From: Allomyces arbusculus
Lineage: Eukaryota > Blastocladiomycota > Blastocladiomycetes > Blastocladiales > Blastocladiaceae
NCBI GenBank assembly: GCA_027604705.1
Contig: JADHYV010000031.1
Location: 1 to 64,000, forward strand
Length of the DNA stretch: 64,000 nt
Reading direction: 5' to 3'
The notes beneath the pieces were generated by a model. That model did no database searches. It was not told the origin of the DNA and was given only the letters and a program-made list of their open reading frames with translations. Made by a program: the position numbers and the translations under genes. This document shows positions 5,653-12,309 of this stretch, one piece after another (position 1 is the first letter of the stretch; each line of letters begins with the position of its first letter).

Positions 5653-7505
5653 TTAGAAGTGGTCGCCGGGCAGGTCCTCGAAGACGGGTGCCGGCACGGG
5701 CTCCTCGCCGAGATCCTTGGCAACGGCGTTCCAAATCGCGCCCGACCGAATCAGCTTCCAGACGGCGTCGATATCCGGCGCCATGAACCGATCCACATCA
5801 AACGACTTGACCTCCTTGCGCACGAGTGCATAGACCTTTTCCAGCACGGGCGTCGTCTTCTTCGGCCGGTGGAATTCGATCGCCTGGCACGCCGCGAGCA
5901 GTTCAATCGCGACCACCTTCTCCACGTTCTCAACCACCTTGAGACACTTGCGCGCGGCCCACCCGCCCATTGACACGTGGTCCTCCTTGCCCGCCGACGT
6001 CGGGATCGAGTCGACCGACGCCGGGTTGCACAGGTTCTTGTTCTCCGAGACGAGCGCGGCCGCCGTGCAGTGCGCGATCATGAAGCCCGAGTTGAGCCCG
6101 CCCTCCTTGACCAAAAACGCCGGCAGACCCGAAAGCGTTGGGTTGATCAACCGCTCGACACGACGCTCCGAGACCGACGCGACCTCGTGAATGCCAATCG
6201 TCAAGTAATCAAGGGCCTTGGCGGGATACTCGCCGTGGAAGTTGCCGCCGGAAATGATCTCGCCCGTCTCGGCAAAGATCATCGGGTTGTCAGTCGCCGA
6301 GTTCATCTCCGTCGTGATCACGCCGCGCGTAAACTCGACCGTATCCGCCGCGATTCCGTGCACTTGCGGCATGCACCGCAGCGTGTAGGCGTCCTGGACG
6401 CGCGCACAGTTCGCGTGCGCCGCGAAAATCTCCGAATGGTTCTTGTCATGGTGCAGCAGCGCGCGCAAGCGCTTGGCGCACTGCACTTGGCCCGAGTGCG
6501 GGCGCGCAGCGTGGATTTTCGGGTCGAAGGCGCGCGGCGTGCCCTGCAGGGCCTCGAGCGTGAGCGCGCCGACGACATCGGCCTGCTTGGCGACGAGCGA
6601 TGCGCGCACGAGGGCCTCGGCGCCGTGCGACGTAATGAATTGCGTGCCGTTGATCATGGCGAGACCTTCCTTGGCGCCCGGCTGGATGGGGGTCAAGTTG
6701 TGCCGCTTGAGAACGGCGGCGGCATCGTCCCACTTGTGCAGCGACGAGTCCCACATCTTGCCCATGCCCATCATGCTAAAAAATTGACAAAAATTGTCAG
6801 CTATCGTTACGATATTCTCCACCCAATACCACGGCCAAAAACGTAAAGGAATCGTACCCCAGCGCCAAGTGCGCCAACGGCGCCAAATCGCCCGACGCGC
6901 CGACCGTCCCCTGTTCCGGCACGTACGACAAGCACCCTTTGTTGAATGCATTCAGCATGCACCGCACCGACTCGGGCCGAATCCCCGAGAATCCCTTGGC
7001 CAAGACATTGATGCGCAGGACGAGCAGCATGCGCGTGCGCGCGGGACTCAGCGGCCGGCCCGTGCCCGCCGAATGTGACGTGATCAGGTTCACTTGCAGC
7101 TGCGAGAGCTTGTCGTTTTCAATCGTGACCGACGCGAAGTTGCCAAACCCCGTGTTGATCCCGTAAATGGGCTTGCCGCACATGGCCAGCTTGTCGACGA
7201 GCGCGCGCGACGCGCCGATGCGCGACCAGGCGTCGGGCGTCAGGTCGATTTGCAGCTTGCCGTGGCTATTTGATTCGAATTGGATCAGATTTCGGGTCGG
7301 GAAGCCAGAAGGTCGGCATCGGCGGCTCGCGGCTCGCGTACCTCAGCTGGACGAGGTTCTCGGGCGTCAGCGTCTCGCCGTCGAGCAGGAACAGGGTCGG
7401 GTTCTTCTTGTCAAACGGCATGGTGGGAAGCGGGTCGGACAGCAGCGGCTTGGGTCGGTCGGGGGGCAGTCGGAGACGCTTGCAGGCAACCGGATTGGAG
7501 GGCAA
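5653..7505 (-). CDS. HAL: Histidine ammonia-lyase (histidase)
   Basis: Histidase (EC 4.3.1.3) deaminates L-histidine to trans-urocanate, the first step of histidine degradation. Exons on the minus strand are 7505-7342, 7265-6858 and 6775-5653. Both introns (76 and 82 nt) have GTACG donors and preserve phase, giving 564 aa. The protein carries the N-terminal family segment [13 protein letters not shown] and the YGINTGFG motif. The autocatalytic MIO cofactor triad Ala-Ser-Gly sits in [16 protein letters not shown], and exon 3 begins GMGKMWD. The later conserved blocks [10 protein letters not shown] and [12 protein letters not shown] are also intact. The length is between bacterial HutH (about 510) and human HAL (about 657). 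The start at 7505 is the first in-frame Met below a TATA box. An internal Met (MPFDKK) is an alternative. It is divergent from the formimidoylglutamase-type gene of the same pathway. Confidence 0.95.
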
Positions 7506-7577
7506 GTTGCACGGTCCAAATCGACAAGTCGAATTGCTGGAGAGAGAATTTGGTGACGGAGGGCGGCACTGTGCGCT

Positions 7578-7584
7578 CTATATA
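7578..7584 (-). promoter_or_regulatory. TATA box for HAL
   Basis: On the minus strand the sequence reads TTATATAG, 73 bp upstream of the HAL start codon. This allows a start site about 30 bp downstream and a short leader. Confidence 0.6.
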
Positions 7585-8078
7585 ACTTGCGTTGCCGGGC
7601 AGGGTGCGGGCAAGCGGGGAGATCGCGGGCTCACAGCAGAATCGACGGCGGGTAATTGGCTTGCAGTTCACGGTTGAGCGGGACGGGAGTGGGTGGTGGT
7701 GCACCGCCGTGCCCAGCAGCTGTTTCGAGATCACGGCCAGAACGGCGGCGCGACACGCGTGGGCTTTGTCCGCTGCAAGGGCACGTGAGCCCTGCAGCGG
7801 CTGTTCTTGCCGATGCAGGCCATCGCTGCGGAAAAACCATAGCGTAAAACGGCGAATCTGAGCGTAAACAAGTGTAACTTGCGTTTGGCGGGCCGAAGGC
7901 TTGCCGCACGGAAGCATGGGATGCCTGTTGGTGTGACGGAAAGTGTCTGCACAACATGGTGGTGGCACGCGTCGTTGGCCATGCCATCGTTGCCAACTTG
8001 ATCTGGCCCGATTCGCCCTCTCCTTTGCCCACCTCCTTGCTAGCCTGCTCGAGATTTGCCAACCGTGCTCTCGACAAG

Positions 8079-8085
8079 TATATAA
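8079..8085 (+). promoter_or_regulatory. TATA box for the formimidoylglutamase gene
   Basis: TATATAA lies 67 bp upstream of the ATG at 8152, the usual place for a TATA box with a leader of about 40 nt. It supports that ATG as the start. Confidence 0.65.
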
Positions 8086-8151
8086 TTAGCAGGACCGACC
8101 CTCTCCACCCGCTGCACGCCAAGCTGCACACAACCAGAGATTAGCACCACC

Positions 8152-9470
8152 ATGTTTGCCAACTTCCCGACCGACGACCCGCGGATGGGCCATATTCTCG
8201 TCGATGCGACGAGTCACTCGAGTCTGGCCGACGTGCCTAAGCCTGCGACCGCCAAGAACCGAACCGCCATTATCGGGTTTCCGTTTGACCAGGCACGATC
8301 GACCTGAACGAGTCCGCATGGTTGGTCACGAAGGCTGACAGTTCCGGCCAGGGCGTCGCGCGCAATGGTGGCCGTCCTGGGGCAGCAGGCGGCCCCGACG
8401 TGGCGCTGACCTATATTCGCAAGGTGGGCACGATTGTCAACTCGGAATACGACGTGGATTTGCGGTATGTCGTCGAACTGGGCATCCGATTCGTCGCGAC
8501 CAGCAAGCTGATCATGTATTGTTTTTGCTAGCTCGACCGTGCAGCTCGTCAACGCTGGCCTTGTCGGCAACAACGACACCATGTCCCTCGAGGACGGCCA
8601 CGCGATGCTCCGCAACCGCGTGCGCGACGCGATCCAACACGGCTTTGTGCCGTTTGTGATTGGTGGTGGCAACGACCAGTCCTACCCGAACGCACGCGGC
8701 CTGCTCGACACGCTCTCACCCACGACGCACCTGACAGTCATCAACATTGACGCGCACTTTGACGTGCGTCCGCTCAAGGAGGGCAAAGTCCATTCCGGGT
8801 CGCCGTTCCGGCAATTGCTCGAGGACCGCGATTTCCAGTCGCGCAAGGGCTATTTCATCGAGTACGCGGCACAAGGAAGCCAGTGCTCGGCCGATCACGT
8901 TGCCTACCTGCGCAGCCGCGACGGCAAGCTGCACGCCGACGTGCCAACCCATACCGAGATTGTGTGGCTCAAGGACGTGATGCGGCACGAGTGCGGGCAG
9001 GGGGTGGAGGCCGGCACGTCACCGTTCGCGCAGCATTTCCGTGCTCTGATTGATCACGCGGCAAAGGAGCACCCGGACCGTGCGATTTTCGTGTCGTTTG
9101 ATTTGGACGCCGTCCGTTCGGCCGATGCCCCCGTACGCTGAATCGTGCTGCGTCGCTCAATTTCGTTTTTCATAACTCACGCGTTTGGGCAAATTGGTGT
9201 AGGGCGTGTCGTGTGCGTCGCCCTTGGGGATCACCGCCGACCAGGCTATCGACATTTGCTTTATTGCTGGCGCGAATCCCGCGGTACGGCCTCTCTGCAA
9301 TCGTCCGACTTTCCTCATTCGCAAAGGCTGACCTCTTCGTTGTGCTGTTAACTTAGGTCAAGCTCGTGGACCTGAGCGAGTTCAGCCCGCGCATCGAAGA
9401 GTACCGCACGGGTCGCTTGGTCGCCATGATGTTCTATTACTTTTCCTTGGGCCTTGCTCATCGTCCGTAG
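8152..9470 (+). CDS. hutG: Formimidoylglutamase-type arginase-family hydrolase
   Basis: This arginase-fold (ureohydrolase) enzyme probably hydrolyses N-formimidoyl-L-glutamate to glutamate, the last step of histidine breakdown. Exons are 8152-8292, 8352-8464, 8532-9132, 9203-9283 and 9357-9470, all joining in phase, for about 349 aa. Conserved blocks are AIIGFPFDQ|GVARNGGRPGA, FVIGGGNDQSYPNA, the metal-binding INIDAHFDVRP, HSGSPFRQLL, and SFDLDAVRSADAPGVS with the second metal cluster. The C-terminal VKLVDLSEFSPRIE is typical. The first metal-ligand position, His in arginases (GGxHx), is Asn here. Intron 1 (8293-8351) is GC-AG, not GT-AG. The substrate is inferred from the neighbouring histidase and sequence type. 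Agmatinase or guanidinobutyrase activity is less likely but not excluded. Confidence 0.88.
8293..8351 (+). other. GC-AG intron
   Basis: Between codon 47 (Gln, CAG) and the conserved GVARNGG block, the only phase-keeping intron begins GCACG and ends CCAG (59 nt). No GT donor restores the family sequence FDQGVARNGGR. The donor differs from the usual local GTACG by a single T-to-C change. Confidence 0.75.
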
Positions 9471-9829: not shown

Positions 9830-10766
9830 ATGTCGTCGTTCCGCACCGTTGGCCGCAAGATTGTCGCGATTGGCCGCAACTTCGCGTATGCATCGACCTT
9901 GACCTGTTCCTACCCTGCCAGCAACCTGTAGTGCCGCGACCGAATGCGACCTTGGCATCTCCAAGCGACTACGACTGAACGAAAACCGGCTCCTGCGATA
10001 GGGACCATGCTAAGGAGCTTGGCAACGCCGTGCCGTCCAAGCCCATGCTTTTCTTGAAGCCCACGTCCTCGTACGCCGTCAACGGCAAGACGATTGAGAT
10101 CCCGAGCCAGTGCGACGTGCACCACGAGGTTGAGCTCGGCGTCGTTATTGGTCAGACGGCACGTCGTGTGTCCGAAGCCGACGCCATGAAGCATGTTGCG
10201 GGTGCGTAGTCGCGTCAAATTCTCAATAGCGAATGCGTCTCCGGTCGCACAACTGACCACGTTGCGACCATTACTTTAGGCTACACGCTCGCCATTGACA
10301 TGACGGCGCGCGACTTGCAGAACGCGGCCAAGAAGGCGGGCCACCCGTGGTCCGTGGCCAAGGGGTTCGACGACTTCACACCCATCACCGACATGGTCTC
10401 GGCCGAGACGATCAAGGACCCGCACAACGTGCGTCTGTGGCTCAAGATCAACGGCGAGACCAAGCAGGACGGCACGACGCAAGACTTTATCTTTGGGTGC
10501 GTTGCCGCGTCGACTCTGCTTCGTTCGCTCCACGGTTCCTATTCCTGACTCTGTCGCCCGACAATACTAGCATCCCGCGCTTGATCTCGCACGTGTCGCA
10601 AATCATGACCCTCGAGGAGGGCGACGTGATTCTAACCGGCACGCCCAAGGGCGTTGGTCCCGTGCGTCCGGGCGACCACCTTGAGGCCGCGATCGAGTCG
10701 GAGGGCGAGCAAGTACTGCACGGCGAGTGGAACGTGGCCGGGCGTCATGTCGACGCCGAGCTGTAA
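9830..10766 (+). CDS. FAHD1: FAHD1-type acylpyruvase / oxaloacetate decarboxylase
   Basis: This fumarylacetoacetate-hydrolase-domain protein corresponds to mitochondrial FAHD1, which hydrolyses acylpyruvates and decarboxylates oxaloacetate. Exons are 9830-9885, 10002-10201, 10280-10496 and 10571-10766, all in phase, giving 222 aa, the normal length for the family. Conserved features are [29 protein letters not shown], and the metal-binding Glu pair in [12 protein letters not shown], with further motifs [18 protein letters not shown] and [15 protein letters not shown]. No separate targeting leader is evident before [10 protein letters not shown]. It follows the histidine-catabolism pair in tandem orientation, but I know of no biochemical link. 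Confidence 0.93.
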
Positions 10767-11375: not shown

Positions 11376-12309
11376 ATGAAGCACATTAGCCGCGACGCGC
11401 TCTACACGGACCTGATGGCGCGGTTCACCTATGTGGCTGAGTTTGTCGATTTCGGTGATGCCGACAAGGCCGCAATCAAGGGCGCGGCGGCAGCGCTTGC
11501 GCCACTCGTGCCGACCGTTGTCAATGCCGGTACGCAATCGACATCCCAGGACGCGTCGCGCACCACTCTCTCCTCTCTCCCTTTTTTTGATGCGCTCTTG
11601 CCGTCGCCGTCCTCGCCTGTCCAGTTTACGAGAAGCTGTTCAGCTTCGACATCACCAAGCGGCACTTCATCAAGAAGATGGAGGGCTACGAGGGCAATCT
11701 CGAGGAGGACCTTGCATCGCTGTCGGGCGACTCGGACCAGATCAAGTTCCGCAAGGAGATGCTCTCGCGGTATCTCGTCAAGCTCGTCACGTCCGAGTTT
11801 GACGAGAGTTTCGTCAAGTATATTGACTGGGTGGCCGTGGTACGTTTTGTTTCTCGACGCGTCTCACACGGCTCTGCTCGTTTTCATCGTGATCCGCGGC
11901 CTGACCACTTTCGCCCACACCCGCGTGCAGATTCACACCAACAACAAGGGCAAGCGGTCGGGCATCAACGTTGAGATCATTCACCTCAACGCGCTCATGG
12001 GCTTTGTCGAGAACATTTTGATCAGCACGATCATGGACCTGCCGATCGACAACGACGGCAAGAAGGCGGCGTTGCTCGCGTTCAACAAGCTGTTGTGGAT
12101 TCAAAACGACTTATTCGTGCAGGTGCGCAACGCCAACCTCGCTTGGTGTTGGCTCCCGGATATGATTGACGCGGTGCCGCTTTGTCTACGGTTAGTACTA
12201 CGCGTACGATGGCTCGGACCTCGCCGAGGCGCGCGCCAACGTCAAGGGGGTCATTCGGCCGGCCGGCACGTCGGGTGGGTGCCCATTCAGCGGCGCCAAG
12301 TCGACGTGA
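11376..12309 (+). CDS. Protoglobin-domain protein
   Basis: This is a single-domain haem protein of the protoglobin / globin-coupled-sensor class found in some fungi. Exons are 11376-11529, 11625-11839, 11931-12122 and 12196-12309, all phase-correct, giving 224 aa. The family pattern is visible as ISRDALYTDLMARFTYVAEF, ALAPLVPTVVNAVYEKLFSF, FRKEMLSRYLVKLVT, the segment WVAVIHTNNKGKRSGINVEI, and ALLAFNKLLWIQNDLFV near the C-terminus. HTNN and IIHLN are candidates for haem-contacting helices. No output domain (methyl-accepting, GGDEF or kinase) is attached, so it may bind oxygen or NO on its own or dimerise. The C-terminal tail GTSGGCPFSGAKST is short. Its physiological role is unknown. Domain identity is from recall of the family, not a search. 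Confidence 0.82.

Follow-up and report, generated by a model that had tools for sequence, protein, structure and literature searches.

The window analysed here, the first 64,000 nucleotides (forward strand) of contig JADHYV010000031.1 of the zoosporic fungus Allomyces arbusculus (assembly GCA_027604705.1), contains two intact predicted genes of histidine breakdown arranged head to head, namely, a histidine ammonia-lyase (histidase) gene, HAL, on the minus strand (7421 to 5653) and a gene for an arginase-family hydrolase, FIG, on the plus strand (8152 to 9470), which is the apparent formiminoglutamase, so that the first and the last genes of the pathway lie back to back. We also observed that the genome encodes the complete four-gene complement for the conversion of histidine to glutamate. 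It is, in our judgment, highly probable that the enzymes and the pathway are as proposed here; the pair itself is read as a two-gene metabolic cluster in this fungus. A sequence-only reading of the same DNA had described a histidase and a formimidoylglutamase-like gene in this head-to-head arrangement, each with its own TATA box; the arrangement holds, with two uninterrupted predicted proteins, a TATA-type site was found ahead of each gene, and the total span of the pair, 5653-9470, is exactly as quoted there. The distance between the starts, given as 646 bp in that reading, is actually 730 bp from ATG to ATG (7422-8151). The gene models are predictions from splice signals and homology. The features of the locus are as follows.

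7342 to 7421, minus strand: HAL exon 1, with the ATG at 7421 and no other Met upstream within that open frame
6858 to 7265, minus strand: HAL exon 2, carrying the Ala-Ser-Gly triad
5653 to 6775, minus strand: HAL exon 3, stop codon included
7422 to 8151, no strand assigned: intergenic region of 730 bp, a candidate bidirectional promoter
7579 to 7584, minus strand: TATA-type site on the HAL side, 163 bp upstream of the HAL start codon; sequence TATATAG in minus-strand orientation (7584)
8079 to 8084, plus strand: TATA-type site on the FIG side, TATATAA (8079), 73 bp before the FIG ATG
8152 to 8292, plus strand: FIG exon 1, placed by splice signals and homology
8293 to 8351, plus strand: FIG intron 1, GC-AG, the GC donor being a minor splice type
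8352 to 8464, plus strand: FIG exon 2, containing the RNGGR motif
8532 to 9132, plus strand: FIG exon 3, with the GGGND, DAHFD and SFDLD motifs
9203 to 9283, plus strand: FIG exon 4, placed by splice signals and homology
9357 to 9470, plus strand: FIG exon 5, stop codon included

The 536-residue product of the three HAL exons scores 694.1 bits against the NCBIfam hutH model, above the curated cut-off of 539.15, and is identical to the solved chains 6v6h and 1gkm, which we take to be the HALs of Trypanosoma cruzi and Pseudomonas putida, in 290 of 505 and 212 of 494 residues, respectively. The Ala-Ser-Gly triad, which is the source of the 4-methylideneimidazole-5-one (MIO) cofactor in HAL, is kept in the alignment to the solved HALs. 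Together, the hutH score, the triad and the solved relatives support the assignment of the protein as a predicted histidine ammonia-lyase, as the sequence-only reading had it. In a search of the genome (25.9 Mb in 197 contigs), both matches to the aromatic-lyase family fall within HAL, a result that gives a lower bound on the HAL copy number because only the best candidates were scored.

The FIG product, 349 residues encoded in five exons, finds its top matches among solved structures in 2a0m, 4mxr and 4myn (235-238 bits; the latter two are named formiminoglutamase), all of which we take to be the T. cruzi enzyme, in agreement with the references in PMC12203737; the next solved entry, another formimidoylglutamase, scores 51.8 bits. 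In the alignment with the T. cruzi enzyme, 123 of 253 residues are identical, and the GGGND, DAHFD and SFDLD motifs of FIG (GGGN, DxHxD and DxD) line up with those of 4mxr. In enzymes of this kind, these motifs contribute the metal ligands. The GGGN position is occupied by Asn in both FIG and 4mxr, and among the 80 prokaryotic relatives analysed (kept out of 420 found) by His in 75 and Asn in five; DxHxD is seen in each of the 80, partly by construction, given that one of the search patterns covered this motif. The five Asn-type HutG relatives (L016, L022, L024, L027 and L032) come from Chloroflexota or Acidobacteriota and form one group in the tree. Phylogenetic analysis (82 rows, midpoint-rooted, with two eukaryotic rows and a long-branch warning elsewhere in the tree) placed FIG and the T. 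cruzi enzyme together with a support of 100/99 and nine archaeal HutG rows as their sister group with a support of 98/87. The activity of the T. cruzi formiminoglutamase is stated to be confirmed in PMC12203737. From these similarities we infer that FIG would hydrolyze formiminoglutamate, with manganese as the metal; the earlier description of the gene as formimidoylglutamase-like is borne out by the solved matches, the Asn position and a hutG score that exceeds the agmatinase score.

For the two intermediate steps, the sequence-only reading had named the absence of urocanase or imidazolonepropionase from the genome as an outcome that would speak against it; both are present. Urocanase is encoded on contig C3 (975 kb) at about 400.9 kb, where the Pfam match scores 274.7 bits, above the cut-off, and two exons match hutU; imidazolonepropionase is encoded on contig C39 (217 kb), within 122.5-123.8 kb, by three consecutive exons matching hutI with 130.9, 223.7 and 26.1 bits, each singly under the whole-protein cut-offs; two more weak hutI matches (25.9 and 21.9 bits) lie on other contigs. 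Both genes are at least about 90 kb from the ends of their contigs and, therefore, are not in a tight cluster with the HAL-FIG pair, so that two of the four pathway genes are adjacent. As for the last step, the alternative enzymes FTCD_N, HutF and FGase had no match in the exon-by-exon genome search (the same searches gave matches in 1, 9 and 1 of 14 control genomes, respectively), and the arginase-family genes found are FIG and one arginase on contig C109 (367.8 bits, cut-off 227.6). FIG is, therefore, the sole candidate found for this step, which indicates that the fungal step 4 is of the formamide-releasing T. cruzi type rather than of the FTCD or HutF/FGase types, as far as can be predicted from sequence.

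Under the proposed mechanism, HAL would take ammonia off histidine to yield urocanate, urocanase and imidazolonepropionase would turn urocanate into formiminoglutamate, and FIG, an arginase-fold metal enzyme, would split the latter into glutamate and formamide. Conceivably, the 730-bp region serves as a shared promoter that would balance the entry into the pathway (HAL) with the exit from it (FIG); we regard a shared promoter as an evenly balanced question and co-regulation of the two genes as plausible.

The first and last genes of the pathway are also found close together in bacteria and archaea. Another hut gene lies within the fetched stretch for 28 of the 80 prokaryotic FIG relatives, and a HAL match is present in at least 19 (a lower bound, as many of the fetched loci end early), codirectional with HutG in 14 and head to head with it in five, the latter being the arrangement of the fungal pair. 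The five head-to-head loci (L017, L018, L020, L021 and L025) come from Methanoperedens, Methanoperedenaceae, ANME-2 (two loci) and Euryarchaeota; they group together in the FIG tree and have 189-250 bp between the matched stretches, with urocanase following in all five and imidazolonepropionase in four. The difference is that 18 of the 19 HAL-bearing prokaryotic loci also carry hutU and/or hutI, whereas the fungal linkage is restricted to the first and last genes, which contain introns and are each preceded by a TATA-type site of their own.

The similarity of gene order raises the possibility that the head-to-head pair was acquired from archaea as one unit, a scenario with which the sister relationship between the nine archaeal HutG rows and the two eukaryotic enzymes in the midpoint-rooted tree, as well as the five archaeal loci themselves, would be compatible. 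The HAL tree, however, left the placement of the eukaryotic pair without resolution, and in the approximately unbiased (AU) test, holding the eukaryotic HALs with the five archaeal HALs was rejected (p-AU 0.020, or 0.022 with Micrarchaeota added; the test covered 17 of the 19 HAL matches, L027 and L044 being too short to include, and its p-values are indicative only because the groups were defined once the gene order was already known). Moreover, because both types of enzyme also occur in T. cruzi, a pair acquired in this way would need to be very old. Given the AU rejection for HAL, joint transfer of the pair is unlikely, and the like gene order in archaea and the fungus is probably convergent. 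On the sampling used (80 prokaryotic relatives out of 420, plus two eukaryotic rows), we consider acquisition as a unit very improbable. Bacterial contamination as the source of the locus was also considered and is rejected because both genes contain spliceosomal-type introns (five of the six are GT-AG, the exception being the GC-AG intron 1 of FIG) and eukaryotic genes are present on the same contig: 12 of the 20 frames scanned on it match a Pfam family, for example UDP-glucose:glycoprotein glucosyltransferase, SRP68, EMC6 and PIG-S.

Several observations weigh against the pathway and the shared control proposed here. The FIG product scores 126 bits against the hutG model (TIGR01227, an equivalog), short of the curated cut-off of 229.15. 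This shortfall cannot separate FIG from the T. cruzi enzyme because the available pieces of the latter (a fragment of 264 letters including a linker) score 128.5 bits, also below the cut-off, as do the three prokaryotic FIG relatives tried, with 196-220 bits. The FmdA_AmdA formamidase family, one of the amidase families and the only one searched, had no match in the genome (the same search matched 4 of 14 control genomes), and the genome searches in general were performed exon by exon with the best candidates only, so the absences they report are not proof. The pairing is known from one fungal genome. A TATA-type site for each gene fits two independent promoters equally well. Finally, no word is common to the regions upstream of the three transcription units (HAL-FIG, urocanase and imidazolonepropionase) beyond what is seen in random segments of the same genome, a test that a weak or gapped site could escape.

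Given that FIG belongs to the arginase family and that the agmatinase model also matches it, with 62.9 bits, the protein might be an agmatinase-like or other guanidino hydrolase rather than a formiminoglutamase. The hutG score is twice that value and the arginase score is 32.8 bits; furthermore, the closest solved enzyme is a formiminoglutamase with which FIG shares the Asn position and a strongly supported group, and the genome search yielded no other enzyme for step 4. This makes a guanidino hydrolase distinctly improbable, and formiminoglutamase remains the preferred assignment.

A more serious alternative is that HAL and FIG are real members of the pathway that came to lie next to each other by accident, with no shared control. 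The two TATA-type sites are separate, 500 bp apart, and both are nearly palindromic and, accordingly, visible on either strand; TATAWA is rare in the window (14 occurrences with both strands counted, at a GC content of 61%), and the HAL-side TATATAG matches TATAW but not the stricter TATAWA. Urocanase and imidazolonepropionase are unlinked to the pair, and the shared-motif test was negative. The word ACGGTTGAG, located at 7670-7678, precedes each of the three transcription units and turns up once in 82.7 kb of control DNA, but is not significant in the three-way test; a second word, GCCATGATGGC, is shared by the upstream regions of the urocanase and imidazolonepropionase genes. Out of 60 control draws, 30, 12, 17, 24 and 34 equalled the observed score for words of 10, 12, 14, 16 and 20 bases, respectively; because the control draws score as well, a shared regulatory word is rejected as evidence of co-regulation. 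By our own estimate, with approximately 9,000 genes assumed from the gene density, the chance of any adjacency among the four named genes is about 0.001, which argues against accident, but this figure is uncorrected for the many other pathways that could have caught attention. Also against accident, PMC2871058 states that divergent gene pairs of fungi tend to have related functions when they are conserved in evolution, and it takes divergent genes separated by less than 1000 bp to have a promoter in common; the former point would apply to HAL and FIG if their pairing is conserved. On balance, accidental adjacency appears to us a substantial possibility, somewhat on the improbable side. The more ambitious proposal, that HAL and FIG form a minimal hut cluster under selection, inducible by histidine and driven by one bidirectional promoter, that methane-oxidizing archaea evolved this head-to-head arrangement independently and that the eukaryotic FIG derives from an archaeal-type HutG, is put forward tentatively and, taken as a whole, seems rather unlikely.

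Parts of this pathway are not without precedent in zoosporic fungi. Expressed sequence tags (ESTs) for urocanase and imidazolonepropionase of Blastocladiella emersonii were reported in 2006, along with the proposal that histidine is used as a carbon source (PMC1550239). Novelty of the pathway in zoosporic fungi can, therefore, not be claimed, contrary to the implication of the sequence-only reading; its broad statement that classical fungi often lack histidase is not supported either, given that Aspergillus nidulans makes an active histidase and is without urocanase (cited in PMC1550239). Histidase has been called irregular and rare among lower eukaryotes (PMC9002059). The Blastocladiella data differ in that neither a sequence for histidase or formiminoglutamase nor a gene order is described in the accessible part of PMC1550239, the string 'formimino' being absent from its main text. 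The pathway of T. cruzi (TcHAL, TcUH, TcIP and TcFG) proceeds through the same four steps to glutamate and formamide, and its last enzyme resembles FIG in belonging to the arginase family and having Asn at the GGGN position, but this organism represents another kingdom, and gene order is not described in the available text (PMC12203737). Divergent catabolic gene pairs of fungi, in turn, resemble the HAL-FIG pair in that genes of one pathway lie back to back less than 1 kb apart; those that we encountered serve other substrates (nicotinate, glucuronate, rhamnose and nitrate), whereas HAL and FIG serve histidine. Among the matches listed for the open-access literature, none reports a fungal pairing of HAL with formiminoglutamase, a weak form of absence as subscription papers mostly lie outside that body. 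What is new here is the first and last genes of the pathway and their pairing.

Some observations in the neighborhood and elsewhere in the genome are worth recording. Downstream of FIG, on the same strand, lies an exon of the fumarylacetoacetate-hydrolase family (10210-10545), a gene for which we know of no link to histidine breakdown. A frame with a Protoglobin domain lies at 11591-11971 (38.9 bits); sensor-type globins in fungi are the subject of PMC3287990. Two matches to the bacteriorhodopsin family exceed the cut-off in the genome, one on contig C7 (L011) and the other on contig C15 (L012), both candidate zoospore photoreceptors. The former is followed by a guanylyl-cyclase-like stretch, whose closest solved relatives over 93 residues, with clear differences, are the nucleotide-cyclase and rhodopsin/guanylyl-cyclase entries 6sir, 6ao9, 5oyh and 6aoa, presumably from Catenaria and Blastocladiella. 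A rhodopsin-cyclase fusion in such zoosporic fungi appears in the literature, and, taken as a marker, this gene points to a zoosporic and probably blastocladiomycete host.

The findings described here provide a gene-level completion of a pathway that in zoosporic fungi was known only partly, from ESTs. Should the pairing of HAL and FIG prove to be conserved and the two genes co-induced, it would become a small, testable case of linkage between the first and the last enzymes of a pathway in a eukaryote, with an apparently independent parallel in archaea.

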